Shown here: positions 4,527-64,000 of the stretch, one piece after another
How the letters are laid out: every line of letters begins with the position of its first letter
How positions within the stretch are numbered: the first letter of the stretch is position 1
Assembly (NCBI RefSeq): GCF_036320965.1
Contig: NC_092235.1
Span: 4,919,342 to 4,983,341, forward strand
Reading direction: 5' to 3'
DNA length: 64,000 nucleotides
Source: Panulirus ornatus
Taxonomy: Eukaryota; Arthropoda; Malacostraca; Decapoda; Palinuridae
The notes under the pieces: model-generated
Databases searched by the model: none
What the model was told of the DNA's origin: nothing
Seen by the model: the letters and a program-made list of their open reading frames with translations, nothing else
Position numbers and translations under genes: made by a program

Positions 4527-4745
4527 TGGAAAGGATCACAATTTTGCACGTGATCAAGTATATTATTAGGAGTCCACGGGATTAATGAAACACGATAAGT
4601 TCCCGAGTGTACTTTCGTGTAATATCACATTATCATGGGAGACACAAGAAAGAAATATAACAGTCATTTGATATACAATGAAGAGACATAGCTAGGACGC
4701 CATTTGGTAAACATGCGATCGTCCAAGACAAACTTATCGTCTTTC
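4527..4745 (+). repeat. Dispersed repeat, second copy
   Basis: Contains AGGATCACAATTTTG at its start and GCTAGGACGCCATTTGGTAA followed by a GATCGTCCAAGACA block near its end. The end portion is found in inverted orientation at 11,494-11,610, so this is a dispersed family present at least three times in the window. No coding capacity seen. Confidence 0.7.
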
Positions 4746-4765
4746 ATATATATATATATATATAT

Positions 4766-4865
4766 NNNNNNNNNNNNNNNNNNNNNNNNNNNNNNNNNNN
4801 NNNNNNNNNNNNNNNNNNNNNNNNNNNNNNNNNNNNNNNNNNNNNNNNNNNNNNNNNNNNNNNNN
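4766..4865. other. Assembly gap (100 N)
   Basis: Exactly 100 N, entered from an (AT)n run on the left and leaving inside the RFX-like gene copy on the right. The round number suggests a gap of unknown size. Confidence 1.
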
Positions 4866-5263
4866 AGGCGATATCGTCTCTCAACGATTCTCTCGATCTT
4901 CTCTTGCACGGCCTTCATGATACGTTTGGGCGGCTTTCTCCATTTTCTTTGCATTTCAGTTGGTGATCCTGCGCCATCGAGCCACATGATACCAGAATAG
5001 TATCGTTCCTGTTTCCCAACGGGTCCAATCTTGGTGTCACACATGATGCCGAGGGAACCCAAATGGCGGCCGATGTTTACGTTGGAAGCCACGGGCTCGT
5101 TATGTATCTTGCAGTAACTTTCATACCGTTGCTGCAGCTCTTTCCTGCTGATAAGGTACTGCTTCATAGTAATAGTCTTTCCCTTCATTTGAACGAAGGT
5201 ATTCATGAAACTAACAAAGGAAGCCTTTCCTTTGTAATCCCGTTTGTAGTAACAGAAAGCCAT
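4866..5263 (-). pseudogene. RFX-like winged-helix protein gene, broken copy
   Basis: The first about 125 codons match the two complete copies at 54,500-55,255 and 59,914-60,630, including the RFX-like domain (about residues 15-95). Near 4,893 two single bases are missing relative to those copies, shifting the frame, and the C-terminal repeat tail is lost in the adjoining gap. The upstream region keeps the palindromic motif (5,424-5,437) and two TATAGTGAAG boxes (5,456-5,465, 5,470-5,479). The homology ends near 5,523. A dead paralogue of the 54-60 kb genes, about 50 kb away. Confidence 0.8.
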
Positions 5264-46893: not shown

Positions 46894-47745
46894 TCACCAA
46901 CTGAATCTTTTGGCACGGGGAGCGTGAGTCATCTCGACACGCCTTTTAACGCCCGTACGTGGTGCGGAGTGCAGTCGGTCTGTAACGTAGGACATGTCAT
47001 GTGTTATTGTTCCCAGTCGGTCTAGAACGCTGGGCCTGACATGTGTTGGGGGACCAAGTCGGTCTTGAATGGTGGGCCTGACGTGTGTTGGGGGACCAAG
47101 TCGGTCTTGAATGGTGGACCTGACAGGTCTTGAGACCTGCCATGTCTCCCTGAAGGTGGGCCTGACAAGTGTGGTGGGCTGCATTTCCTCATGGATGGTG
47201 GGTCTGGTAGGGAGTGTGGGCTGCAGTGCCACTTGAGTGGGCGAGGTCACTTGGTCAGCATCAGTGGGACGGTGAGGTTTCACTTTTGCACAGCGACCGT
47301 TGACGGAGAGTGGTGTCACGTCGGCAAGAAGTGCCTTCTTGTAGGAGGCATAGCAGGAGTACTGGATGACGGCAATCACGCGGTGGTTCTCGTAGGTCGT
47401 GTAGGACTGCATGTCGAAGCGAACGATGTCGCCGAACTGCTTGAAGAATTCCCAGACGTTCGACCTTGAGATTTTGTATGGAACGTTGACGACCCTGATG
47501 GTATACCGCTGCAGGACGGTTTTGAGAACCCCTTGCAACTGGTCGTTGGTGGGCACGATGACATGTATGTCGTCATCATCGCAGCCCAACTCATCTATAT
47601 GTGGGAGTCGGGTCTCGTGTGGTGGACGGTCCAGCAAATCATCCTCATTGTGGAAAGGCAGGTAGGCCTGGTCAAGGAGGGCGACCCAGAGCACCTGCTG
47701 CTGCTCGACCACCTCCACAACTGAGCTTTTTGCAAAAACTCCCAT
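46894..47745 (-). CDS. RRM-like protein with C-terminal tandem repeats
   Basis: A 283-residue protein. Residues about 80-157 look like an RNA recognition motif: YTIRVVNVPY (RNP2-like, 81-90), helix SNVWEFFKQFG, and HRVIAVIQYS (RNP1-like, 121-130), then the SVNGRCAKV strand. The aromatic residues of RNP1 are replaced by Ile/Val, so RNA binding may be weak or the fold used for protein contact. The N-terminal 75 residues are acidic (GCDDDDIHV). From about 165 the tail has imperfect repeats of about 14-22 residues (VRPTIQDRLGPPTH twice) and ends in a basic KRRVEMTHAPRAKRFSW, a possible nuclear signal. ATG at 47,745 is the first in frame; stop TGA. The palindromic motif lies 38 bp upstream (47,783-47,796). 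No host orthologue recognised. Confidence 0.65.
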   Translation of the reverse strand: MGVFAKSSVVEVVEQQQVLWVALLDQAYLPFHNEDDLLDRPPHETRLPHIDELGCDDDDIHVIVPTNDQLQGVLKTVLQRYTIRVVNVPYKISRSNVWEFFKQFGDIVRFDMQSYTTYENHRVIAVIQYSCYASYKKALLADVTPLSVNGRCAKVKPHRPTDADQVTSPTQVALQPTLPTRPTIHEEMQPTTLVRPTFRETWQVSRPVRSTIQDRLGPPTHVRPTIQDRLGPPTHVRPSVLDRLGTITHDMSYVTDRLHSAPRTGVKRRVEMTHAPRAKRFSW

Positions 47746-50162: not shown

Positions 50163-50288
50163 CTTCACTATGTTGGTGTTTCATCTTCACTACGCTAGTT
50201 CTTCAACTTCACTCTGTTAATCTATCATCTAGGATATCAAATCAATGAGGAAACGCTAGTCAACTATATTTTTGTGTGGCTTCACTAT
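50163..50288 (+). promoter_or_regulatory. Cluster of CTTCACTA boxes ahead of RFX-like gene A
   Basis: CTTCACTA occurs at 50,163-50,170, 50,185-50,192 and 50,280-50,287, with a variant CTTCACTC near 50,207. This is the reverse complement of the TAGTGAAG core found in the repeats at 8.1 and 48 kb and beside the palindromes of the other genes. Confidence 0.45.
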
Positions 50289-50358
50289 ATCTTTGCAAGT
50301 GCTGGTCTATGAAAGTTTACTTCGTCAAGTAAATCACTCATCTCACCAGATCGCAGAA

Positions 50359-51105
50359 ATGACTCACGTCCGCGCTGCCCATCGGTACCCTGGCAAGGAA
50401 TCCTTCCTTGAATTTTTCGAGGCTCACATCCAGCAAACCGGGGCTGTTAAAGATTGTATAAGCCGAACTGAGCTATATTTGCGATACTGTGAATTCTGCG
50501 AAGGGTTCGGGTACGAGAAAGCTGCCGTCCTGAACGTCGGCAGAACACTGGGACGGTGGGGCATCAAGGCAGATCGCAGACTTGGAGGACGCAACGGCCG
50601 CCACCAGGAGTACGCCTACACCAGAATTGCCTGGTTGTCCAGCAGTGAGGGCCTGGCCCAGGGAGGAAAGCGGTGCCTTCCACAATGCCAAAGGCCTTCC
50701 AGGAAGAGATCACGTCTGGATATCGAACCCGTGCACGAGAGAGTAGTGGTGAAGATCCAGACTCGGCATCAAGATGATGATGACCTGTGCGAAGGCGGAC
50801 CCAGCGAGGAAACTGGTGTAGTTGACACAGGAGCAGCCGCCATCCCCATCAATGTTTCTTTGGCTCCCACCAAACAACGGGGCAAAGTGATGCCTTCCAC
50901 TGAATTGGTGACCTTGATCCCCTACTTCTATGGGGATGAATCAGGACTGGTGGATCCCGACGTACTCGTACTGGTCGTCGATGAAGACCCTGATGTGTCC
51001 GTCGCTGCGACTGGAGGATCAGCAGCACCTGCAGCAGCAGCCGACCCTAAAACTGAAGCGGCCGTGTTGAAGATTAAAGTCCACACCACCAACATTCATC
51101 CCTGA
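50359..51105 (+). CDS. RFX-like winged-helix protein A
   Basis: A 248-residue protein. Residues about 14-93 match the layout of an RFX DNA-binding domain: helix FLEFFEAHIQQ, then SRTELYLRYCEFCEG, a spacer, NVGRTLGRWGI, and the wing DRRLGGRNG...EYAYTRIAW, corresponding to the P-R-S-x-L-Y, F-G-K, R-R-L-G-x-R-G and Y-x-Y-x-G-I blocks of RFX proteins. RFX factors bind X-box palindromes as winged helices. A basic RKRSR at 115-119 could be a nuclear signal. The tail is acidic, then Ala-rich. I chose the ATG at 50,359 because the longer frame to 50,272 starts with TTG. Stop TGA. A second copy runs off the window at 64,000. Alternative: the winged-helix C-terminal domain of viral or phage primases is similar in shape. 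Confidence 0.65.
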   Translation: MTHVRAAHRYPGKESFLEFFEAHIQQTGAVKDCISRTELYLRYCEFCEGFGYEKAAVLNVGRTLGRWGIKADRRLGGRNGRHQEYAYTRIAWLSSSEGLAQGGKRCLPQCQRPSRKRSRLDIEPVHERVVVKIQTRHQDDDDLCEGGPSEETGVVDTGAAAIPINVSLAPTKQRGKVMPSTELVTLIPYFYGDESGLVDPDVLVLVVDEDPDVSVAATGGSAAPAAAADPKTEAAVLKIKVHTTNIHP

Positions 51106-52291
51106 AATTCCTTAAACCTTAAGTTCCCGTCCCTGAGATCGGATAAGCTGCTCCTCCTCCAGCAGTCGACCCTGTTATACCCGGTCCTCAGAAGACACTT
51201 CCTATGGCAAAAGTTCTCATTCAGTTGCAAATTATTGGCAAACTATTTTACGGATGAAGCGGTTATCATAAAGGATTAAATCCTCAGGAAAAGTTCCTAC
51301 TATTTATGAGTCCCATCTACTGGGGTGAAAAAAAAAATTAAAAATAAAAAGATACATCCATTCTGTTAGGTGCCAAAAACATGGCACAAATGGACCCTAA
51401 GTCGAACTGCTGACCTCCTAGTGGTAGGGTCCGGGCAACTTTGAGGGAACATTAATCTTCAAAGGCTAACAGCAGTCGCACAAAAGCAATAAAGATTAAT
51501 CATAATTAGTCATTTACAATAATCATAGACGATGGTTATAGCCTCGCCCATTTATCATCTCATTCGCTGTGAAGGAAATCATAGGCGACTCTGATTGCAC
51601 CTACATCTATCAGTTTACTTATTTATTCAATCATCTATCTATCTGTCTATCTTCCTTGTTTGAAGATTTTCTGTATCATGTAAATCTCAGCCATTGAAAT
51701 GTCCTGAGATTAATGTCGAAGTGAATGAATGAATTCTAGTTTGGATTAGAATACTTAGCCCCGTTTTTGCACTTTCCTTCACTATTTGTCCACCATTCAT
51801 TCCCCTTAAGAATCTACGAACTAACTTCAGAGTCGTATTACAAACATATGAAACATGTCACCATCTCACTGTTTTGTTGACATTTCTAACTATATTACAT
51901 CTGTCAGTTTCTAACTGCGATCATCGGATGATTATCTTTATATATTTTGCTGCTGTTCAAGTTCCTTCACGAGAATAATAAACCAGACCTTGTTTTCATC
52001 ATGTAACATGGAGTTCAAGAAGAAAGTCTATAGATGAAAAAAATCCAATGGCATAAATTCAATTAATTAGATTACACGCAGAATATTCGCCCTTCTTGAC
52101 CAGCACCATTTCAGAAGTAATGGTTGCTCGAACATCGGCAGTTGAGACGAAAAAAGAAAAACAAAAATATGTTCAGTAAAACTATATTAGTACAAAGACA
52201 ATGTATCGTATGTACCGATATGAAAGATGATATATAGTCTGTACTAATATCCAAGACAATATAGGCAGCAAGTATGAATTATGTACATGTG

Positions 52292-52294
<3 letters not shown>
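51106..52294. other. Non-coding part of the left arm
   Basis: Unique-looking AT-rich DNA shared with 62,655-63,844. Includes a short hairpin GGACCCTA/TAGGGTCC near 51,400-51,441 and TCTATCTATCTGTCTATC. No gene recognised. Confidence 0.6.

Positions 52295-52341
<47 letters not shown>
52295..52341. repeat. (AT)n microsatellite, short allele
   Basis: About 47 bp; its counterpart in the right arm (62,457-62,654) is about 198 bp, showing the arms have evolved separately. Confidence 0.95.
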
Positions 52342-52346
<5 letters not shown>

Positions 52347-52442
52347 CTCAGATTTGGGTGTATAAATGTGTGTTGATGTAACCAAGATGAAAAAAAAGGA
52401 GAGATAGGTAGTATGTTTGAGGAAAGAAACCAGTATGTGTAA

Positions 52443-54215
52443 ATCAATTCCGCTTTAGGGAAAAGGTTAAGAGATCCTATACAGGTATATAAAGTTATTG
52501 TAATGGCATCCCTTTAAGCTTAATATTTTAACTTCCTGTAACTAGTTCCAACAATTAAAACAATATTCAGCATTGTGATTTAAGTGACTGAATTTAGGAT
52601 GCATTTGGATCTGTCAAAAATTGTATTTAGCAAATACTTCAAATTTCGATTGACCCGTTCTATATTTTTATTCATTTCATCTCAGTTACATCACCTTTCT
52701 GTTACTGTTTGATATCAACAGTAGCCCGTCTACGTAGTTGGGGCTCTGAAGCAACGGAAACTTTTTCTAGCCTAGGTTAGGGTAGTATCTAAACCAAACC
52801 TAAATGACCTTACCTTAGAAATATGTTCAGACAGTACCTTCTGAAAATATTTCTTAAGGTAAGGTCGTGGGGATTAGTTTAGCTGCTAACTAAACCTTGT
52901 CTAGAAAAAGTTTGTTTTAAAGCCACAACTAGTTGAAAGGCCTACTTTAAGTGGTGATATTGAAATCAATTTGCTCCAGTGTGCCCCTCCGTCCGTTTGT
53001 TTTATGTCCATCTAAAGATGCATACGTTCAATTTTTGATGTAGATTGATTTCCTATATTAGCTTCGTCTACGGAATTCTACATCTTCAGTTCAGCACAAC
53101 ATTGTGGTAATGAAGGGAAAGTCACCACATTTACAAGCCGAGTGCAGGTAGCTTGCCCCACCTTGTTAGAGAGAAAAATGACCTGTATTTGAATCAATGA
53201 ACGTGAACAGAGAAGACAAAGTTTTACTATACATTTATTGTACAACTATATATAATTTAGATTACATACATTACCACATTTCCTGCACTTTCCATCACAA
53301 ATTTGCTGCGGTTATAACCTTGTAGTTACCATTACCTTACAACCATAAGGATGGTGGTCTACAACACCTCCAGATATACAACTATATATAATTTAGATTA
53401 CATACATTACCACATTTCCTGCGCTTTCCATCACAAATTTGCTGCGGTTATAACCTTGTAGTTACCATTACCTTACAACCTTAAGGATGGTGGTCGACAA
53501 CACCTCCAGATTGATGGAGAGAACGAAAAGTTTCGTTTTACTCTTAAGACAAAAGAAATACGGTAATTCCACTTCACTACCACTAACTAGTTATTTTACT
53601 TGTTGATTTTCACGGCTAAGATTTTCATCCTCTGAGCGAAGCCATACAATAATCGTCCTTATCTACTCTGAGAATTGGATATCCTCCTGATGATCAAGAT
53701 TGCTGTTTTGGTTGTCCGTTTCCCTTTTCACTGCTGCGCCTCACTGCACACCTTACATGAGTGCCTTCCACAGTAATAGGGACAGCTGCTGGGCCTCACT
53801 GTAGCTACTTCTGGGACGGTTGCCAATCTTCCTCGTATTCCCTCATGACCACAGCGCCAAACCGACTCCCGCCATCAGGCCGAGACGCACAAACATTTCT
53901 GACAAAATTGAGACAAACGCTTTCGCGTCGGTTTTGACATCAAGTGAATTTATACGACAATTACGCTCAAGATGCTTGGTTTTTCGTTCATGGATTGAAC
54001 AGAAGCAACCAACGATGGTTGCTACTGCCCAATCCATGAAGTCCCCCCCACCACGGAAAGGTAACCAAGCTTCGGGGGGGATGGGTGTTTACCCTGACGC
54101 CAACGGAGAAACTCAATACAATATTTTTATTATAACTTTCCTTAATCTTGAAAAATAAATCAATCAGAGGGAAGAATAGCCCCAGTCATATGAAGATTGG
54201 CTAACCAAATGTATA
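52443..54215 (+). repeat. 1.6-kb dispersed repeat, copy B
   Basis: Same orientation as copy A. Includes an internal tandem duplication of about 120 bp (53,225-53,370 repeated at 53,375-53,490) that copies A and C lack. Confidence 0.85.
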
Positions 54216-54499
54216 TAGTTGTCAGTCCTTCTAACACTTGTATATTTTCGATCGTTAGAGCATCCATCTATTCATCTCATATAAGTGTTGCTAGGACAGT
54301 TGTCTATTAGTGCAGAGATCTTCTCCTCGGTAAAGAAAGTGTAGCCGGACTCCGCCTTCATGAGGTTACTGCATGACAGCAAAGATCACCCTTTGGTAGG
54401 CTGTGCTATAGGCAGCACAGCTCCGTCAAAGATCTCACTCCATAAGTGAACTTATATAGATTCCTTTTTTAACATTTTGTCTTGTCTATAAGGAACTCA

Positions 54500-55255
54500 T
54501 CAGTTCTTCTCCAGTGAAAGCAAAAAATCATCGAGAAATTCATTTGCTTCCTCAATATCAGGATCTTGTGGCTCTGTGTGGGGGACGGGGCTGGTGGGCT
54601 GTGTGTCTGGCTGTGTCTGGGGAGCGGGGCTGGTGGTGTCTGTGACTTGCTGTGTCTGTGGAGCGGGGCTGGTGGTCTCTGTGACTTCCTGTGTCTGGGG
54701 AGCAGGGCTGGTGGTCTCTGTGACTTGCTGTGTCTGGGGAGCGGGGCTGGTGGTCTCTGTGACTTGCTGTGGCTGGGATGCGCGGCTGGTAGTCTCTGTG
54801 ACTGGCTGTGGCTGGAGATCAGGGGAAGTCTTGGGCATAAATTTCAATATACTGTAAGCGATATCGTCTCTCAACCGATCCCTCTCGATCTTCTCTTGCA
54901 CGGCCTTCATGATACGTTTGGGCGGCTTTCTCCATTTTCTTTGCATTTCAGTTGGTGATCCTGCGCCATCGAGCCACATGATACCAGAATAGTATCGTTC
55001 CTGTTTCCCAACGGGTCCAATCTTGGTGTCACACATGATGCCGAGTGAACCCAAATGGCGGCCGATGTTTACGTTGGAAGCCACGGGCTCGTTATGTATC
55101 TTGCAGTAACTTTCATACCGTTGCTGCAGCTCTTTCCTGCTGATAAGGTACCGCTTCATAGTAATAGTCTTTCCCTTCATTTGAACGAAGGTATTCATGA
55201 AACTAACAAAGGAAGGCTTTCCTTTGTAATCCCGTTTGTAGTAACAGAAGGCCAT
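54500..55255 (-). CDS. RFX-like winged-helix protein B (left-arm copy)
   Basis: A 251-residue protein. RFX-like domain at about 15-95: SFVSFMNTFVQM, ISRKELQQRYESYCK, PVASNVNIGRHLGSLGI and KIGPVGKQERYYSGIMWL. A basic helix (QRKWRKPPKRIMKAVQEKIE, 105-125) follows. From about 150 to 225 come five 13-residue repeats of the type QVTETTSPAPQTQ, then an acidic, leucine-rich end (IEEANEFLDDFLLSLEKN) resembling acidic activation domains. Start is the first ATG; stop TGA. The X-box-like palindrome lies 161 bp upstream, with TATAGTGAAG at 55,462-55,471. Family function (sequence-specific DNA binding) is inferred from the domain layout only. Confidence 0.7.
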   Translation of the reverse strand: MAFCYYKRDYKGKPSFVSFMNTFVQMKGKTITMKRYLISRKELQQRYESYCKIHNEPVASNVNIGRHLGSLGIMCDTKIGPVGKQERYYSGIMWLDGAGSPTEMQRKWRKPPKRIMKAVQEKIERDRLRDDIAYSILKFMPKTSPDLQPQPVTETTSRASQPQQVTETTSPAPQTQQVTETTSPAPQTQEVTETTSPAPQTQQVTDTTSPAPQTQPDTQPTSPVPHTEPQDPDIEEANEFLDDFLLSLEKN

Positions 55256-55415
55256 CGAAGACGTGGATTGGGTCAGGCGAAGTTACACAGACTAACAAGA
55301 TAGTCCTATAATCAATGGTCCTGTATCAGCACTGAACTCGAAATACGTCGGAACGACAATTTCAACCCAGGGCTGGAGGGCCAGTTGATGATATTCTCAC
55401 GTCTTGCTCAACCAA

Positions 55416-55429
55416 GTAACCTCGGTTAG
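55416..55429. promoter_or_regulatory. X-box-like palindrome GTAACCTCGGTTAG
   Basis: Upstream of RFX-like gene B, left-arm copy, 161 bp from its ATG. Confidence 0.5.
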
Positions 55430-55544
55430 ACCTTGTTTATATTTAAATATAGTAAAGTTAATATAGTGAAGCTTGATGATTCTATTTATATGTAAGTTGC
55501 AATGTAGTTTGTATATATGAATATATATATACATATATATTTAC

Positions 55545-55547
<3 letters not shown>

Positions 55548-55620
<73 letters not shown>
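55548..55620. repeat. (AT)n microsatellite
   Basis: Marks the inner end of the left outer arm and abuts the tail of SINE copy 6. Confidence 0.95.
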
Positions 55621-55622
<2 letters not shown>

Positions 55623-55856
55623 TTTCTTTTCTTTTAAACTATTCGCCATTTCCCGCATTAGCGAGGTAGCGTTAGGAACAGAGGACTGGGCCTTTTTTGG
55701 AATATCCTCACCTGGCCCCCTCTGTTCCTTCTTTTGGAAAATTAAAAAAAAAACAAGAGGGGAGGATTTCCAGCCCCCCGCTCCCTTCCCTTTTAGTCGC
55801 CTTCTACGACACGCAGGGAATACGTGGGAAGTATTCTTAATCCCCTATCCCCAGGG

Positions 55857-55858
<2 letters not shown>
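55621..55858 (-). mobile_element. SINE-like repeat, copy 6
   Basis: Full-length minus-strand copy from CATTTCCCGCATTAGCGAGG to TATCCCCAGGGATAA. Confidence 0.75.
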
Positions 55859-56200
<342 letters not shown>

Positions 56201-56232
<32 letters not shown>

Positions 56233-56233
56233 A

Positions 56234-56315
<82 letters not shown>
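56201..56315. repeat. (AT)n microsatellite
   Basis: Between the tails of SINE fragments 7 and 8, which face each other. Confidence 0.95.
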
Positions 56316-56319
<4 letters not shown>

Positions 56320-56432
56320 TCATACTATTCGCCATTTCCTACGATAGCGAGGTAGTGTTAAGAACAGAGGACTGGGCCTTTGAGGGAATACCCTCACCTG
56401 GCCCCCTTCTCTGTTCCTTCTTTTGGAAAATT
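56316..56432 (-). mobile_element. SINE-like repeat, copy 8 (3' half)
   Basis: Minus-strand fragment from CATACTATTCGCCATTTCCT to TCCTTCTTTTGGAAAATT, ending exactly where the inner palindrome starts (GAGAGGACGTTGTTAGGGGA). Confidence 0.7.
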
Positions 56433-56994
56433 GAGAGGACGTTGTTAGGGGACAGTCAGGTTCAGTTTAGAGTTGGTTGTGGGATGGTTCTTTTACTGTG
56501 TCGTATCAGCCAGATGGGTATTTCTTTTCACAGTTTTCGTTAAAGTTTGTTTTCTAGAGGCATAATTTAGAGCACTATTTTCCATATGTTTATCATTTTT
56601 GTTGTTATAGTTTCATTATCATCATTAGTTTTGTTATTGTTGACTTTCAGATATTTGATGTTATGTTTGTGATTCCCGTGGAAGCGTCTGACATCTTGCT
56701 AGAAGACTTTCTGGTCACAATATTTCTGCACTGGGGAGTTGATCGTATTCTTTTATTGCAGGTTTTGTTATTATCTTGCTTTACATTAAGGTCTACTGGA
56801 GGTTTTCCCAATGCTGGTTGAACATATGTCCAGCAACAGGAAATGGCGTATTGATGAAACTTATCTATCTATATACCTATCTAAATATCGCTCTATCAGT
56901 CTATCAATCTAACTATGTATATATCTATCTATCTTTATCTGAAAGTCAACGATAATGAAATCATTGATATATGAAGTATAACAATGTCATCTCA

Positions 56995-57084
56995 ATGGCA
57001 ATTATCTCACCAGAATCTTCTAGAACCTTCCAGAAAACTATGAACTCTGCAGGCAAGGAGGGAGGAATGGTCTCTGGCTATTGA
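56995..57084 (+). repeat. 90-bp HSE module 1
   Basis: CTCAATGGCAATTATCTCAC, then the HSE-like array, then TGCAGGCAAGGAGGGAGGAA. One of five copies that alternate in orientation between 56,995 and 58,972. Confidence 0.85.
57012..57036. promoter_or_regulatory. Heat-shock-element-like array, five pentamers (1)
   Basis: GAA at 57,013, TTC at 57,018, GAA at 57,023, TTC at 57,028 and GAA at 57,033: five alternating nGAAn/nTTCn units in exact 5-bp phase, the consensus bound by HSF trimers (three units suffice). Confidence 0.55.
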
Positions 57085-57203
57085 TAAAACCATGTTATTC
57101 CATATATATGTTTATATATACATATTTATGTTTATATGTGAATGTATATATAACGTACAGAATAATGCGGCCATCATCAGTATCGAAGAAAACTGAAAAG
57201 ATG

Positions 57204-57275
57204 AGGTCCCACCGAGATTCGAACTCGGATTGCTGGATTTAGAGTCCAGAGTGCTAACCCTTACACCATGGGACC
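57204..57275 (-). tRNA. tRNA, anticodon CTA (predicted amber suppressor), Gln-type body
   Basis: 72 bases that fold as a canonical cloverleaf. Acceptor GGTCCCA pairs with TGGGACC on all seven positions; D stem GTGT/GCAC; anticodon stem CTGGA/TCCAG with loop CTCTAAA; T stem CCGAG/CTCGG with loop TTCGAAT. The body closely resembles metazoan tRNA-Gln(CTG), whose anticodon loop is CTCTGAA: a single G-to-A change at position 36 turns CTG into CTA, which would pair with UAG. Anticodon lies at 57,240-57,242. Internal Pol III boxes are intact and a TTTT terminator follows four bases after position 73. No intron. The amino acid charged cannot be read from sequence; Gln is likely from the body, although the anticodon is itself an identity element for Gln synthetase. 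Confidence 0.85.
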
Positions 57276-57321
57276 TGATAAGAAAAGATGTGATTTCATC
57301 TAAATGTTTTACATATAATCA

Positions 57322-57414
57322 ACCAGAGACCATTCCTCCCTCCCTGCCTGCAGGGTTCAAGGTTTTCTAGAAGGTTCTCGAAGATTCTGGTAAGATCATT
57401 ACCTTTGAGAGGTC
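57322..57414 (-). repeat. 90-bp HSE module 2
   Basis: Inverted relative to module 1; together they bracket the minus-strand tRNA gene. Confidence 0.85.
57364..57388. promoter_or_regulatory. Heat-shock-element-like array, five pentamers (2)
   Basis: TTC at 57,365, GAA at 57,370, TTC at 57,375, GAA at 57,380, TTC at 57,385, exact 5-bp phase. Confidence 0.55.
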
Positions 57415-57799
57415 GTCGTTAGATGACAGTCAGGTTCACTCTATGGTTGGTGTTTGTAGTTGGTTGTCCGAGGATGTTGTTATACTTGATCAATTTTGTA
57501 ATTGTTGACTTTCAGGTAGGAAGTACTCATTTACGATGCATCCTTGTACTCACAACAACCGTATGAGTCACTTCAAGATTTATCTTCACTACAACTTTAT
57601 CTTCACTACACCATTAAGGTTGAAGTAAATGGTCACATTCACTACAATCTCAACACGACTGGTCTTATACCTAACCCATATCATAACAACATCCATGTAC
57701 ATGTACTTTTTGCAGAATAAAACAGATATCACTGATTTCTGTGAAAGTTGATATATACAGCATTACGTATCTATCAATCTATCTAATATCTGTTTTTAC

Positions 57800-57830
<31 letters not shown>

Positions 57831-57887
57831 CCTTTCTAAATCAGAAAGTCAACAATAATATCATTAATGATACGTATAACTACGTCC
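57415..57887. other. Centre of the inner palindrome
   Basis: About 470 bp of non-repeated loop. Includes CTTCACTAC at 57,584-57,592 and 57,601-57,609 and a variant near 57,641, and a TCTATCTATCTATC microsatellite at about 57,795-57,832. No open frame of note. Confidence 0.7.
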
Positions 57888-57978
57888 TCTCAATGGCAGT
57901 TCCTACCCAGAATCTTCGAGAACCTTCTAGAAAACCTTGAACCTGCAGGCAGGGAGGGAGGAATGGCCTCTGGTTGAT
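57888..57978 (+). repeat. 90-bp HSE module 3
   Basis: Plus-orientation module left of the second tRNA gene. Confidence 0.85.
57909..57933. promoter_or_regulatory. Heat-shock-element-like array, five pentamers (3)
   Basis: GAA at 57,910, TTC at 57,915, GAA at 57,920, TTC at 57,925, GAA at 57,930. Confidence 0.55.
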
Positions 57979-58020
57979 TATATGTAAAACATTTAGATGA
58001 AATTACATCTTTTCTTATCA

Positions 58021-58092
58021 GGTCCCATTGTGTAAGGGTTAGCACTCTGGACTCTAAATCCAGCAATCCGAGTTCGAATCTCGGTGGGACCT
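58021..58092 (+). tRNA. tRNA, anticodon CTA (predicted amber suppressor), second copy
   Basis: Identical to the minus-strand copy except for T instead of G at position 9, outside the stems. Acceptor, D, anticodon and T stems all pair. Anticodon CTA at 58,054-58,056 within loop CTCTAAA. A TTTT terminator begins at 58,097. That the unusual anticodon is kept in both arms, while arm sequence around it has drifted, argues against a sequencing error, but the duplication may be recent. Alternatives: a tRNA-derived pseudogene or repeat head; the perfect stems and terminators speak against heavy decay. Confidence 0.85.
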
Positions 58093-58214
58093 CATCTTTT
58101 CAGTTTTCTTCGATACTGATGATGGCCGCATTATTCTGTACGTTATATATACATTCAGATATATACATAAATATGTATATATAAATATATATATGGAATA
58201 ATATGGTTTTATCA

Positions 58215-58305
58215 ATAGCCAGAGACCATTCCTCCCTCCTTGCCTGCAGAGTTCATAGTTTTCTGGAAGGTTCTAGAAGATTCTGGTGAGATAATTGCTA
58301 TTGAG
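58215..58305 (-). repeat. 90-bp HSE module 4
   Basis: Inverted module right of the second tRNA gene, so each tRNA sits within a roughly 420-bp unit framed by inverted 90-bp modules. Confidence 0.85.
58260..58284. promoter_or_regulatory. Heat-shock-element-like array, five pentamers (4)
   Basis: TTC at 58,261, GAA at 58,266, TTC at 58,271, GAA at 58,276, TTC at 58,281. Confidence 0.55.
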
Positions 58306-58876
58306 AGGACGTTGTTATACTTCATATATCAATGATTCTATCATTGTTGACTTTCAGATAAAGATAGATAGATATATAGGTAGATACATAGTTAGATTGA
58401 TAGATTGATAGAGCGATATTTAGATAGGTATATAGATAGATAAGTTTCATCAATACTGTATCTTACACTATCTCCTGTTGCTGGACATATGTTCAACCAG
58501 CATTGGGAAAACCTCCAGTAGACCTTAATGTAAAGCAAGATAATAACAAAACCTGCAATAAAAGAATACGATCAACTCCCCAGTGCAGAAATAATGTGAC
58601 CAGAAAGTCTTCTAGCAAGATGTCAGACGCTTCCACGGGAATCACAAACATAACATTAAATATCTGAAAGTCAACAATAACAAAACTAATGATGATAATG
58701 AAACTATAACAAGAAAAATGATAAACATATGGAAAATAGTGTTCTAGATTATGCTTCTAGAAAACAAACTTTAAAGAAAACTGTGAAAAGAAATACCCAT
58801 CTGGCTGATACGACACAGTAAAAGAACCATCCCACAACCAACTCTAAACTGAACCTGACTGTCCCCTAACAACGTC

Positions 58877-58972
58877 CTCTCAATGGTATTTATCTTACCA
58901 GAATCTCGTAGAACTTTCCAGAAAATCAAGAACTCTGCAGGCAAGGAGGGAGGAATGGCCTCTGGCTGCTGA
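58877..58972 (+). repeat. 90-bp HSE module 5
   Basis: Fifth copy, at the outer end of the right arm. Its array has GAA at 58,901, a degraded unit (TCG) at 58,906, GAA at 58,911, TTC at 58,916 and GAA at 58,921. Confidence 0.8.
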
Positions 58973-59007
58973 TGATAACTACATTATTCTATATATATAC
59001 TTTACCT

Positions 59008-59468
59008 ACAACCGAAGGTTGACCGGCCAGCCCAAGTGGCTACAGAGGTTGTATCCATGAAAGAAACGGACCAACCAGCAGACGAAATCGGTTGGCAGGT
59101 TGTATCGAAGAAGAGGAAAAAGAAGGTTGCCCAACCAGCCCAACCAGAAGGGTGTAGCAAAGAAACGAAAGAAGGCTGCCCAACCAACCTGGGTGGTAGT
59201 AAGGATGGCTGCTCCACAACCCCAGGTCGTTAGGCAGACTGTAGCCATGGAAGAAAGGAAGGCTGCTCGTCCACCAGCCCAGGTACCGAGTGAGCGTGTA
59301 GCTATGCAGGCTGACCCACCAGCCCGGGTAGATAGCTACGCCCAGATGTCTATGTCGGGTGCAGCAAAGAAGCAAACCTCACAACTACTCCACGAGGTTT
59401 GCAAGCCTGCACCCAAAAAGATGAAGACGAAGGTTGCCACACTACCCAATGCACCACCACATGTCTAG
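59008..59468 (+). pseudogene. Lys/Pro/Gln-rich protein fragment with a frameshift
   Basis: I do not recognise this protein. One frame reads VDRPAQVATEVVSMKETDQP and on to SKKRKKKVAQPAQPEG; after about 59,150 the comparable pattern continues in another frame (KKRKKAAQPTWVVVRM..., then PPAQVPSERVAMQADPPARV) to a stop at about 59,468. The shared style (QPAQV-type repeats, KKRKKK basic clusters) on both sides indicates one reading frame broken by an indel. No ATG with upstream context; the 5' end is probably lost. It sits between the inner and outer right arms and has no counterpart on the left side. Confidence 0.5.
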
Positions 59469-59559
59469 AAAGTGAAAAGGTGGACAGAATGGCTGGAGGT
59501 CCCACTCCAACAACAAAATCACCTTAGGAGCCAAGTTCCATCCATTATTGAAAAAAAAG

Positions 59560-59662
<103 letters not shown>

Positions 59663-59742
59663 AACTACATTGCAACTTACATATAAATAGAATCATCAAG
59701 CTTCACTCCATTAGCTTTACTATATTTAAATATAAACAAGGT

Positions 59743-59756
59743 CTAACCGAGGTTAC
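59743..59756. promoter_or_regulatory. X-box-like palindrome CTAACCGAGGTTAC
   Basis: Upstream of RFX-like gene B, right-arm copy, 158 bp from its ATG; the reverse complement of the other sites, as expected from the opposite gene direction. A diverged CTTCACTCC box lies at 59,701-59,709. Confidence 0.5.
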
Positions 59757-59913
59757 TTGGTTGAGCAAGACGTGAGAATATCAACTGGCCCTCCAGCCCT
59801 GGGTTCAAATTGTCGTTCTGACGTATTTCGAGTTCAGTGCTGATACAGGATCATTGATTATAGGACTATCTTGTTAGTCTGTGTAACTCCGCCTTACCCA
59901 ATCCACGTCTTCA

Positions 59914-60630
59914 ATGGCTTTCTGTTACTACAAACGGGATTACAAAGGAAAGTCTTCCTTTGTTAGTTTCATGAATACCTTCGTTCAAATGAAGGGAAAG
60001 ACTATTACTATGAAGCGGTACCTTATCAGCAGGAAAGAGCTGCAGCAACGGTATGAAAGTTACTGCAAGATACATAACGAGCCCGTGGCTTCCAACGTAA
60101 ACATCGGCCGCCATTTGGGTTCACTCGGCATCATGTGTGACACCAAGATTGGACCCGTTGGGAAACAGGAACGATACTATTCTGGTATCATGTGGCTCGA
60201 TGGCGCAGGATCACCAACTGAAATGCAAAGAAAATGGAGAAAGCCGCCCAAACGTATCATGAAGGCCGTGCAAGAGAAGATCGAGAGGAATCGGTTGAGA
60301 GACGATATCGCTCACAGTATATTGAAATTTATGCCCAAGACTTCCCCTGATCTCCAGACACAGCCAGTCACAGAGACCACCAGCCCCGCTTCCCAGACAC
60401 AGCAAGTCACAGAGACCACCAGCCCCGCTTCCCTGGCGCAGCAAGTCACAGAGACCACCAGCCCCGGTCCCCAGACACAACCAGTCACAGAGACCACCAG
60501 CTGCGCTCTCCAGACACAGCCAGACACACAGCCCACCAGCCCCTTCCCCCACACAGAGCCACAAGATCCTGATATTGAGGAAGCAAATGAATTTCTCGAT
60601 GATTTTTTGCTTTCATTGGAGAAGAACTGA
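59914..60630 (+). CDS. RFX-like winged-helix protein B (right-arm copy)
   Basis: A 238-residue protein. The first about 145 residues, including the whole RFX-like domain (about 15-95), match the left-arm copy with only a few substitutions, such as EKIERNRLRDD for EKIERDRLRDD. The difference in length comes from the tandem tail: four 13-residue units here against five on the left, with more variation (SLAQQ, TTSCALQTQ). The acidic end IEEANEFLDDFLLSLEKN is unchanged. That the domain and the acidic end are conserved while the repeats drift is what one expects of a gene under selection, though the sample is small. Stop TGA. Confidence 0.7.
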   Translation: MAFCYYKRDYKGKSSFVSFMNTFVQMKGKTITMKRYLISRKELQQRYESYCKIHNEPVASNVNIGRHLGSLGIMCDTKIGPVGKQERYYSGIMWLDGAGSPTEMQRKWRKPPKRIMKAVQEKIERNRLRDDIAHSILKFMPKTSPDLQTQPVTETTSPASQTQQVTETTSPASLAQQVTETTSPGPQTQPVTETTSCALQTQPDTQPTSPFPHTEPQDPDIEEANEFLDDFLLSLEKN

Positions 60631-60825
60631 TGAGTTCCTTATAGACAAGACAAAATGTTAAAAAAAGGAATCTATATAAGTTCACTTATGGAGTGAGATC
60701 TTTGACGGAGCTGTGCTGCCTATAGCACAGCCTACCAAAGGGTGATCTTTGCTGTCGTGCAGTAACCTCATGAGGGCGGAGTCCGGCTACACTTCCTTTA
60801 CCGAGGAAAAGATCTCTGCACTAAT

Positions 60826-62352
60826 ATTGAGTTTCTCCGTTGGCGGCAGGGTAAACACCCATCCCCCCCGAAGCTTGGTTACCTTTCCGTGGTGGGGGGG
60901 ACTTCATGGATTGGGCAGTAGCAACCATCGTTGGTTGCTTCTGTTCAATCCATGAACGAAAAACCAAGCATCTTGAACGTAATTGTCGTATAAATTCACT
61001 TGGTGTCAAAACTGACGCGAGTTTGTCTCAACTTTGTCAGAAATGTTTGTGCGTCTCGGCCTGATGGCGGGAGTCGGTTTGGCGCTGTGGTCATGAGGGA
61101 ATACGAGGAAGATTGGCAACCGTCCCAGAAGTAGCTACAGTGAGGCCCAGCAGCTGTCCCTATTACTGTGGAAGGCACTCATGTAAGGTGTGCAGTGAGG
61201 CGCAGCAGTAACAAGGGAAACGGACAACCAAAACAGCAATCTTGATCATCAGGAGGATATCCAATGCTCAGAGTAGATAAGGACGATTATTGTACGGCTT
61301 CCCTCAGAGGATGAAAATCTTAGCCGTGAAAATCAGCAAGTAAAATAACTAGTAGTTAGTGGTATTGAAGTGGAATTACCGTATTTCTTTTGTCTTAAGA
61401 GTAAAACGAAACTTTTCGTTTTCTCCATCAATCTAGAGGTGTTGTAGACCACCATCCTTAAGGTTGTAAGGTAATGGTAACTACAAGGTTATAACCGCAG
61501 CAAATTTGTGATGGAAAGTGTAGGAAATGTAGTAATGTATGTAATATAAATTATATATATTTGTATAATAAATGTATACTAAAATTTTGTCTTCTCTGTT
61601 CCCGTTCATTGATTCAAATATAGGTAAGTTTTCTCTCTAACGAGGTGGGATAAGCTACGTGCACTCGGCTTGTAAATGTGGTGACTTTCCCTTCATTACC
61701 ACAATGGTGTGCTGAACTGAAGATGTAGAATTCCGTAGACGAAGCTAATATAGGAAATCAATCTACATCAAAAATTGAACGTATGCATCTTTAGATGGAC
61801 ATAAAACAAACGGACAGAGGAGCACACTGGAGCAAATAAATTTCAGTATCGCCACTTAAAGTAGGCCTTTTAATTAGTTGTGGCTTTAAAGCAAACTTTT
61901 TCTAGCTAAGGTTTAGTTAGCAGCTAAACTAATCCCCACGCCCTTACCTTAAGAAATATTTTCAGAAGGTACTGTCTGAACATACTTCTAAGGTAAGGTC
62001 ATTTAGGTTTGGTTTAGATGCTACCCTAACCTAGGCTAGAAAAAGTTTCCTTTGCTTCAGAGCCCCAACTACGTAGACGGGCTACTGTTGATATTAAACA
62101 GTAACAGAAAGGTGATAAAACTGAGATGAAATGAATGAAAATATAGAACGGGTCAATTGAAATTTGAAGTATTTGCTAAATACAATTTTTGACAGATCCA
62201 AATGCATCCTAAAGTCAGTCACTTAAATCAAAGCTGAATATTTTTTGGAATTGTTCGAACTAGTTACAGGAAGTAAAAATATTAAGCTTAAAGGGATGCC
62301 ATTACAATATATACCTGTATAGGATCTCTTAAACTTCTTTTCCCTAAAGCGG
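60826..62352 (-). repeat. 1.6-kb dispersed repeat, copy C
   Basis: Inverse of copies A and B. Its end near 60,826 is joined directly to TTAGTGCAGAGATC-type sequence that in the left arm lies 190-200 bp further on, a deletion at a short TA/AT overlap. Confidence 0.85.
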
Positions 62353-62455
62353 AATGGATTTACACATACTGGTTCCTTTCCTCAAACATACTACCTATCT
62401 CTTCTTTTTTTTCATCTTGGTTACATCAACACACATTTATACACCCCAATCTGAG

Positions 62456-63844
<1,389 letters not shown>

Positions 63845-64000
63845 TCAGGGATGAAATATGGTGGTGTGGACTTTAATCTTCAACACGGCCGCTTCAGCTT
63901 TAGGGTCGGCTGCTGCTGCAGGTGCTGCTGATCCTCCAGTCGCAGCGACGGACACATCAGGGTCTTCATCGACGACCAGTACGAGTACGTCGGGATCCAC
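63845..64000 (-). CDS. RFX-like winged-helix protein A, second copy (C-terminal end only)
   Basis: The last about 51 codons of a second gene A, with stop TGA at 63,845-63,847 (minus strand). It matches the end of the 50,359-51,105 gene (VDPDVLVLVVDEDPDVS, Ala-rich run, KTEAAVLKIKVHTT) with NIHP changed to IFHP. The domain-bearing part lies beyond the window. Confidence 0.75.
   Translation of the reverse strand: MDPDVLVLVVDEDPDVSVAATGGSAAPAAAADPKAEAAVLKIKVHTTIFHP

Follow-up and report, generated by a model that had tools for sequence, protein, structure and literature searches.

The window, that is, the whole stretch of 64,000 nucleotides analysed here (G000:C12:4919342-4983341), carries two complete tRNA genes with a glutamine-type body and the anticodon CTA, which form the cassette pair in one copy of a palindromic unit that is present in high copy number. 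Such a unit carries two outward-facing cassettes (about 200 bp each and about 820 bp apart) and an RFX-like gene. In the explanation that we favour, and to which we assign a probability of about one half, the CTA tRNAs would be transcribed by RNA polymerase III (Pol III) to some extent, with the T-runs at the cassette end stopping the polymerase, receive glutamine from the host synthetase and cause a readthrough of UAG that would be weak or conditional and might be coupled to heat-shock factor via the array lying upstream. As to the copy number, it is most likely due to amplification and homogenisation of the unit and not to a demand for a suppressor. The original prediction, which had proposed a duplicated suppressor tRNA that would read UAG, is confirmed as an observation and partly supported as an interpretation.

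Two CTA tRNA genes in the arms of an inverted repeat

ARAGORN found two tRNAs in total in the 64 kb, both with the anticodon CTA, for which the label of the tool is Pyl: copy A at 57204..57275 on the minus strand (57203-57275 in the ARAGORN output) and copy B, with T at position 9, at 58021..58092 on the plus strand (58021-58093). With the Rfam model RF00005 the two genes scored 64.5 bits (E 1e-11) and 61.3 bits (E 8e-11), the yardstick being the 24 tRNAs of locus L001, which gave 52.2-71.7 bits. This locus belongs to a record titled Maritimibacter MAG, its tRNA cluster being probably of eukaryotic origin, and its Gln tRNA, also used as a yardstick, was the one canonical Gln match from a pattern search of prokaryote genome contigs. 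The CTA version of the tRNA pattern had no match in the same contigs, phage records had no match, and viral contigs, searched both by DNA pattern and by protein, contained no relatives. The glutamine type of the body follows from 55 positions identical to the L001 tRNA-Gln(TTG), the runner-up among the 22 of 24 L001 tRNAs compared having 46. ARAGORN, the Rfam scores and this body comparison agree, as regards two complete Gln-type CTA genes, with what had been predicted from the sequence. The predicted perfect folding was also found: every stem pair of copy A is standard, both copies form a complete cloverleaf with the anticodon CUA, and all four stems are present in the plain energy fold of each. 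The claimed terminator is there as well, TTTT standing directly after each tRNA, and the 3' flank is the same in both arms over its first 52 bases. As for the internal Pol III boxes, scored against the A-box and B-box consensus strings, the claim held for the B-box in both copies and for the strict A-box in copy A, and failed for the strict A-box of copy B, due to its T at position 9.

Self-comparison of the window places the two genes in an inverted repeat, with arm A at 50950..57421 (plus), arm B at 57877..64000 (minus, running beyond the window end) and a central spacer at 57422..57876. Between the arms, 142 differences were counted in 4379 positions (3.2%), a figure which leaves out low-complexity or unalignable parts, the tRNA and the RFX-like N-terminus; arm-specific stretches exist besides. 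Inverted duplications are a known assembly artefact, but because the arms differ, both in substitutions and in arm-specific stretches, an assembly slip is unlikely, and with 35 distinct palindromes recovered with both arms we consider a fold-back or haplotype artefact to be extremely improbable. Within the tRNA, 1 of 72 positions differs between the arms (P = 0.32 against the 3.2% background). Since both genes are arms of one inverted repeat, the pair in the window taken alone says little on selection for the tRNA. For the same reason the duplicated pair that had been claimed does exist, though not as a pair of independent genes. Its undecayed state, which had been pointed out, is no evidence of function, because one difference in 72 at this background fits neutrality.

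Copy number, anticodons and the conserved cassette

A core pattern of 33 places, with two anticodon positions free, was searched in the 2.65-Gb genome and had 311 exact matches (161 forward, 150 reverse), the reversed control giving 0. Hence, if a unit has two cassettes at most, the family would occupy at least about 155 places genome-wide. A count of copies across the assembly had been proposed as a check, and the number is much larger than two; by hand count, the 100 matches listed comprise 93 CTA, 5 TTA, 1 TTG and 1 TTC. The pattern fixes A37 and A38, so that Gln copies with G37 are outside the count of 311. With copy B as the genome query, 1155 first-look candidates were obtained, and the 40 scored among them were at 100% (one, copy B itself) or 99% (39) identity. 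Among the 100 core matches listed, 41 are on C8 (48.7-53.0 of 53.2 Mb), 29 on C12 (0.2-3.4 of 71.4 Mb), 14 on C5 (31.6-37.9 of 51.4 Mb), 13 on C9 (56.1-60.9 of 61.2 Mb) and one each on C2, C4 and C11, so that three chromosome-size contigs hold most of those listed in their terminal megabases. The five listed members with TTA, an ochre-suppressor anticodon, are at G000:C8:49553361, 49952495, 49953297, 50778034 and 51091026; those at 49952495 (minus) and 49953297 (plus) look like two arms of one palindrome.

In 58 loci retrieved from the genome (L002-L059), overlapping loci included, ARAGORN reported 92 family genes with CTA, 10 with TTG, 6 with CTG and 1 with TTA, 66 of the tRNAs being identical to copy A; ten further Ala, Val, Thr and Lys genes are in the surrounding DNA. 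The outward-facing pair is present in 18 of the 20 loci of nine kb, at 786-832 bases start to start (about 820), and the remaining two, L014 and L027, contain one family gene each. In L015, L016, L018 and L026, ARAGORN also calls tRNAs for Ala(GGC) and Val(GAC or CAC), which lie outward from the pair at a distance of about 1.7-2.7 kb and on the strand of the nearer pair tRNA; these may be SINE-like.

From the 58 loci and the window we compiled 68 distinct arm sequences of 362 bases, dropping matches that covered fewer than about 50 bases of the tRNA or lay within 200 bases of a locus end. Their anticodons are CTA in 52, TTG in 9, CTG in 5, TTA in 1 and TCT in 1 (the last may be a register error), and the exact 72-base sequence of copy A occurs in 33 of them, the window's own included. 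Both arms are available for 35 palindromes: 20 CTA/CTA, 9 CTA/TTG, 5 CTA/CTG and 1 CTA/TCT (again maybe a register error). Position 37 and the anticodon change together, the Gln arms having mostly G37 (TTGG 8, CTGG 5, TTGA 1) and the CTA arms A37 in 51 cases and C37 in one.

Could such a family be one of tRNA-derived SINEs, which had been named as a finding that would refute the prediction, or a tRNA-bearing LTR element? In a tRNA-derived SINE a tRNA-related head runs into the body of the element with no Pol III terminator between them. In all 68 distinct arms TTTT stands within 20 bases of the end of the tRNA, and a SINE origin is disfavoured on this ground. The Helenus TRIM of rust fungi is similar in being a high-copy source of tRNA-Sup-CTA predictions, and the available part of its description attributes to it every tRNA-Sup-CTA gene predicted in those rust genera that it discusses (PMC10886601). 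However, the tRNA-like sequence of Helenus is located, according to the same passages, inside the LTRs of a small element, whereas here complete tRNAs, with a T-run a few bases behind, form inverted cassettes within kilobases of flanking DNA common to the copies. In 56300-59100 there are seven direct-repeat families of at least 40 bp, and a tRNA is absent from all of them, which disfavours an element of this type too. In spite of the high copy number, both variants seem to us very improbable. As regards target-site duplications (4-5 bp in Helenus), visual inspection of the ends of the repeats of about 130 bp revealed none.

Comparison of the arms revealed a sharp common block of about 200 bp, made up of a five-unit array resembling heat-shock elements (HSE), about 90 bp of upstream DNA, the tRNA and the T-runs. 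In the window this cassette lies at 57184..57387 (minus) for copy A and at 57910..58112 (plus) for copy B, as delimited by comparisons of 40 and 60 arms. In the 40 arms, which come from the window and from 20 loci of nine kb, conservation starts at the HSE array and stops just past the T-runs. Fetching loci by tRNA identity inflates the apparent conservation, and 28 of the 40 arms had been selected in this way (the window's two included), the other 12 being not directly selected. These 12 deviate from the majority by 0.4% at -60..-1 and by 3.6% in the tRNA, positions 34, 36 and 37 accounting for 18 of the 31 tRNA mismatches; in the bins of ten bases that lie before -110 or start at +90 or later, the deviation is 7.5-60%. 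The comparison of 60 arms, which were chosen for an array at -112, so that the figure for the array is partly a matter of construction, gave a divergence from the majority of 0.0% in the array, 0.3% at -89..-1, 1.6% in the tRNA (0.8% without positions 34, 36 and 37), 5.6% at +1..+20 and 30-33% beyond. Paired columns of the tRNA diverge by 1.07% vs 0.43% for unpaired ones (anticodon left out), i.e., the stems vary no less than the loops. At least one mispair is present in 15 of the 51 indel-free CTA copies, one kind recurring in 14 arms, and the other 36 are fully paired. Given this variation of the stems and these mispairs, tRNA-specific selection was not detected. In these alignments the block is conserved as a whole, without demonstrated selection for the tRNA structure, and the better conservation of the upstream DNA as compared to the tRNA points to an amplification of recent date, to conversion or to upstream DNA that serves as the promoter of something else.

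These data have to be weighed against the explanation that the CTA genes are inert passengers of a unit that spreads, or is homogenised, for other reasons, the tRNAs being silenced, unprocessed or uncharged. We regard it as nearly as likely as the best one. It agrees with the lack of additional conservation in the stems, with the mispaired copies, with the clustering of the listed places near contig ends, with the neutral-compatible tRNA difference between the arms of the window and with the fitness cost that hundreds of active suppressors would be expected to have. Harder to reconcile with it are the fully paired state of 36 of the 51 CTA copies, the T-runs in all 68 arms and the presence of the HSE array in 65 of them.

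The heat-shock element consists of alternating nGAAn units, three or more in number. A motif scan of the window detected four five-unit arrays, which are copies of one repeat, vs none in 300 mononucleotide shuffles; there are also 15 three-unit matches, many of them overlapping or repeat copies, vs 0.56 expected. Two of the arrays are upstream of the tRNAs, at 57365..57387 (minus, 90 bp before copy A) and 57910..57932 (plus, 89 bp before copy B), and the two others are on their 3' side, at 57013..57035 (plus) for copy A and 58261..58283 (minus) for copy B. A perfect five-unit array is located upstream in 65 of the 68 distinct arms, at -112 in 60. This arrangement suggests that the array may give the tRNA a stress-linked expression. 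In heat-shocked mouse cells, according to the part of that study available to us, HSF1 is required for the later increase in Pol III transcription (PMC12059648). A much stronger version, in which hundreds of Gln-inserting suppressor genes for UAG (and a few for UAA), placed under HSE arrays and amplified together with an RFX-like regulator, would raise UAG readthrough when heat-shock factor is active, is in our opinion unlikely. Slightly less probable still is that the cassette serves as a Pol II promoter which is induced by heat and yields a long noncoding or hairpin RNA, with the tRNA acting only as a processing or boundary element. Such a role would be in line with the palindromic layout, with the upstream region being better conserved than the tRNA, with the arrays on the far side of the tRNAs and with a decayed one before the Lys-rich stretch discussed below; however, the conserved block includes the tRNA, and the T-runs follow it in 68 of 68 arms.

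Other genes of the unit and its surroundings

The unit also carries a gene for an RFX-like winged-helix protein, found as an ORF in both arms of the window: 54500..55255 (minus, 251 aa) in arm A and 59914..60630 (plus, 238 aa) in arm B. The ORF was matched without stops in 15 of the 20 nine-kb loci, and its N/S ratio is 0.20 over 18 copies, one of them frameshifted. Over the first 145 codons the arms of the window differ at 4 of 435 positions (P = 0.0015 against the background), and this comparison alone hints at selection on the protein; judging from the set of copies, the RFX-like gene of the unit is under purifying selection. A diverged paralogue, 31% identical over 124 columns, is encoded at 50272..51105 (plus). 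A third near-identical copy, at window positions 4664-5263, is broken by a 100-base run of N.

By sequence, the proteins differ from known ones with an RFX DNA-binding domain: the Pfam RFX_DNA_binding cut-off was not reached by the paralogue (15.4 bits vs 27), and the three near-identical copies had no RFX match in Pfam. The structure model is weak except for residues about 11-90; Foldseek returned no match for it at E 0.001, with RFX1 at rank 31, and in the structure comparison unrelated winged helices follow within 1 Z unit. No relative of the RFX-like protein was found among 3557 word-sharing candidates of a database of 5.8 billion proteins, protein searches with the RFX-like and RRM ORFs had no matches, the PDB searched by sequence had nothing below E 1.7, and PHROGs had nothing for the RFX-like proteins.

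Behind a further, decayed HSE-like copy lies a Lys-rich stretch (59057..59468, plus), which was matched in 19 of the 20 nine-kb loci. Its 87-codon ORF ends in TAG in 17 of 21 sequences compared, L011 having a Gln codon there. Readthrough of the Lys-rich ORFs at UAG was considered and dropped, as neither the ORFs nor the stretch past the TAG displayed clear coding constraint. The RRM ORF (window 46894-47745, Pfam RRM_1 E 2.2e-5) was likewise considered as a conserved part of the unit and rejected: at full length the length filter left no copy but that of the window itself, and the last 150 codons, found in 14 sequences, have an N/S ratio of 0.91, i.e., no coding constraint. Both the RFX-like and the RRM ORFs end in TGA, which counts against a function of the tRNAs. 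Among the neighbouring genes examined, none shows a need for UAG readthrough. A reassignment of UAG to glutamine throughout the genome, with the amplified tRNA as its decoder, would account for very many CTA genes; however, in the window the standard code leaves the RRM ORF, the RFX-like ORFs and the long ORFs of the LINEs open, and if TAG is translated as Gln in 43.5-64 kb, it is mainly frames with no recognisable content that become longer, which makes this possibility scarcely credible.

The rest of the window contains copies of one non-LTR retrotransposon at 2.2-4.2, 6.1-8.1, 14.0-15.8, 16.2-18.2 and 25.3-26.8 kb, about 89-98% identical in pairs (a LINE protein search gave 1946 matches), and, at 33.7-40 kb, pieces resembling a Gypsy-type LTR element and broken by stops.

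Comparison with known suppressor tRNAs

The closest functional parallels, as described in the portions of the reports available to us, are the yeast SUP70 alleles, in which a Gln-type tRNA is also read against UAG, in their case by first-base wobble (PMC3664417), and human Gln tRNAs with an edited anticodon, which have in common with the window genes the Gln body and, for the reading of UAG that is predicted here, a changed anticodon (PMC6379413). These are single mutants or engineered tRNAs, whereas here the genes belong to a natural genome, with 311 core matches and a palindromic arrangement. Judging from the sequence and from the engineered precedents, Pol III transcription and charging with glutamine are plausible. 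According to the relevant passages of the latter report, the edited Gln tRNAs were screened for UAG and clearly preferred UAA; readthrough of normal stops was generally low, Gln-UAA giving an approximately two-fold rise of 3'UTR density, and the tRNAs named there for profiling did not include a Gln-UAG tRNA (PMC6379413).

Intact-looking tRNAs with a stop-codon anticodon, to which the window genes are similar in this respect, have been predicted in other animals. The portions of the sources available to us mention tRNA-Sup-TTA and -TCA groups detected by sequencing in mouse tissue (PMC10787195), a Sup-TTA named in zebrafish (PMC11417395) and a survey in which 21.65% of the eukaryotes have a predicted Sup-TTA (PMC9858662). 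In the descriptions of seven published animal assemblies, as far as these were available, six report no suppressor tRNA and that of Monochamus alternatus reports 2, in contrast to the hundreds of family core matches found here. In the parts of the literature covered by our search we recognised no report of a high-copy suppressor tRNA family in an animal, nor of a palindromic, HSE-linked tRNA family with hundreds of core matches.

Suppressor tRNAs are commonly regarded as costly. A genome that tolerates hundreds of tRNA genes of this family, most of those listed having CTA, would either have very good silencing or live with UAG readthrough. The HSE-like arrays may be an inducible handle. The mixture of CTA, TTA, TTG and CTG on a near-constant body is also a natural record of anticodon switching.
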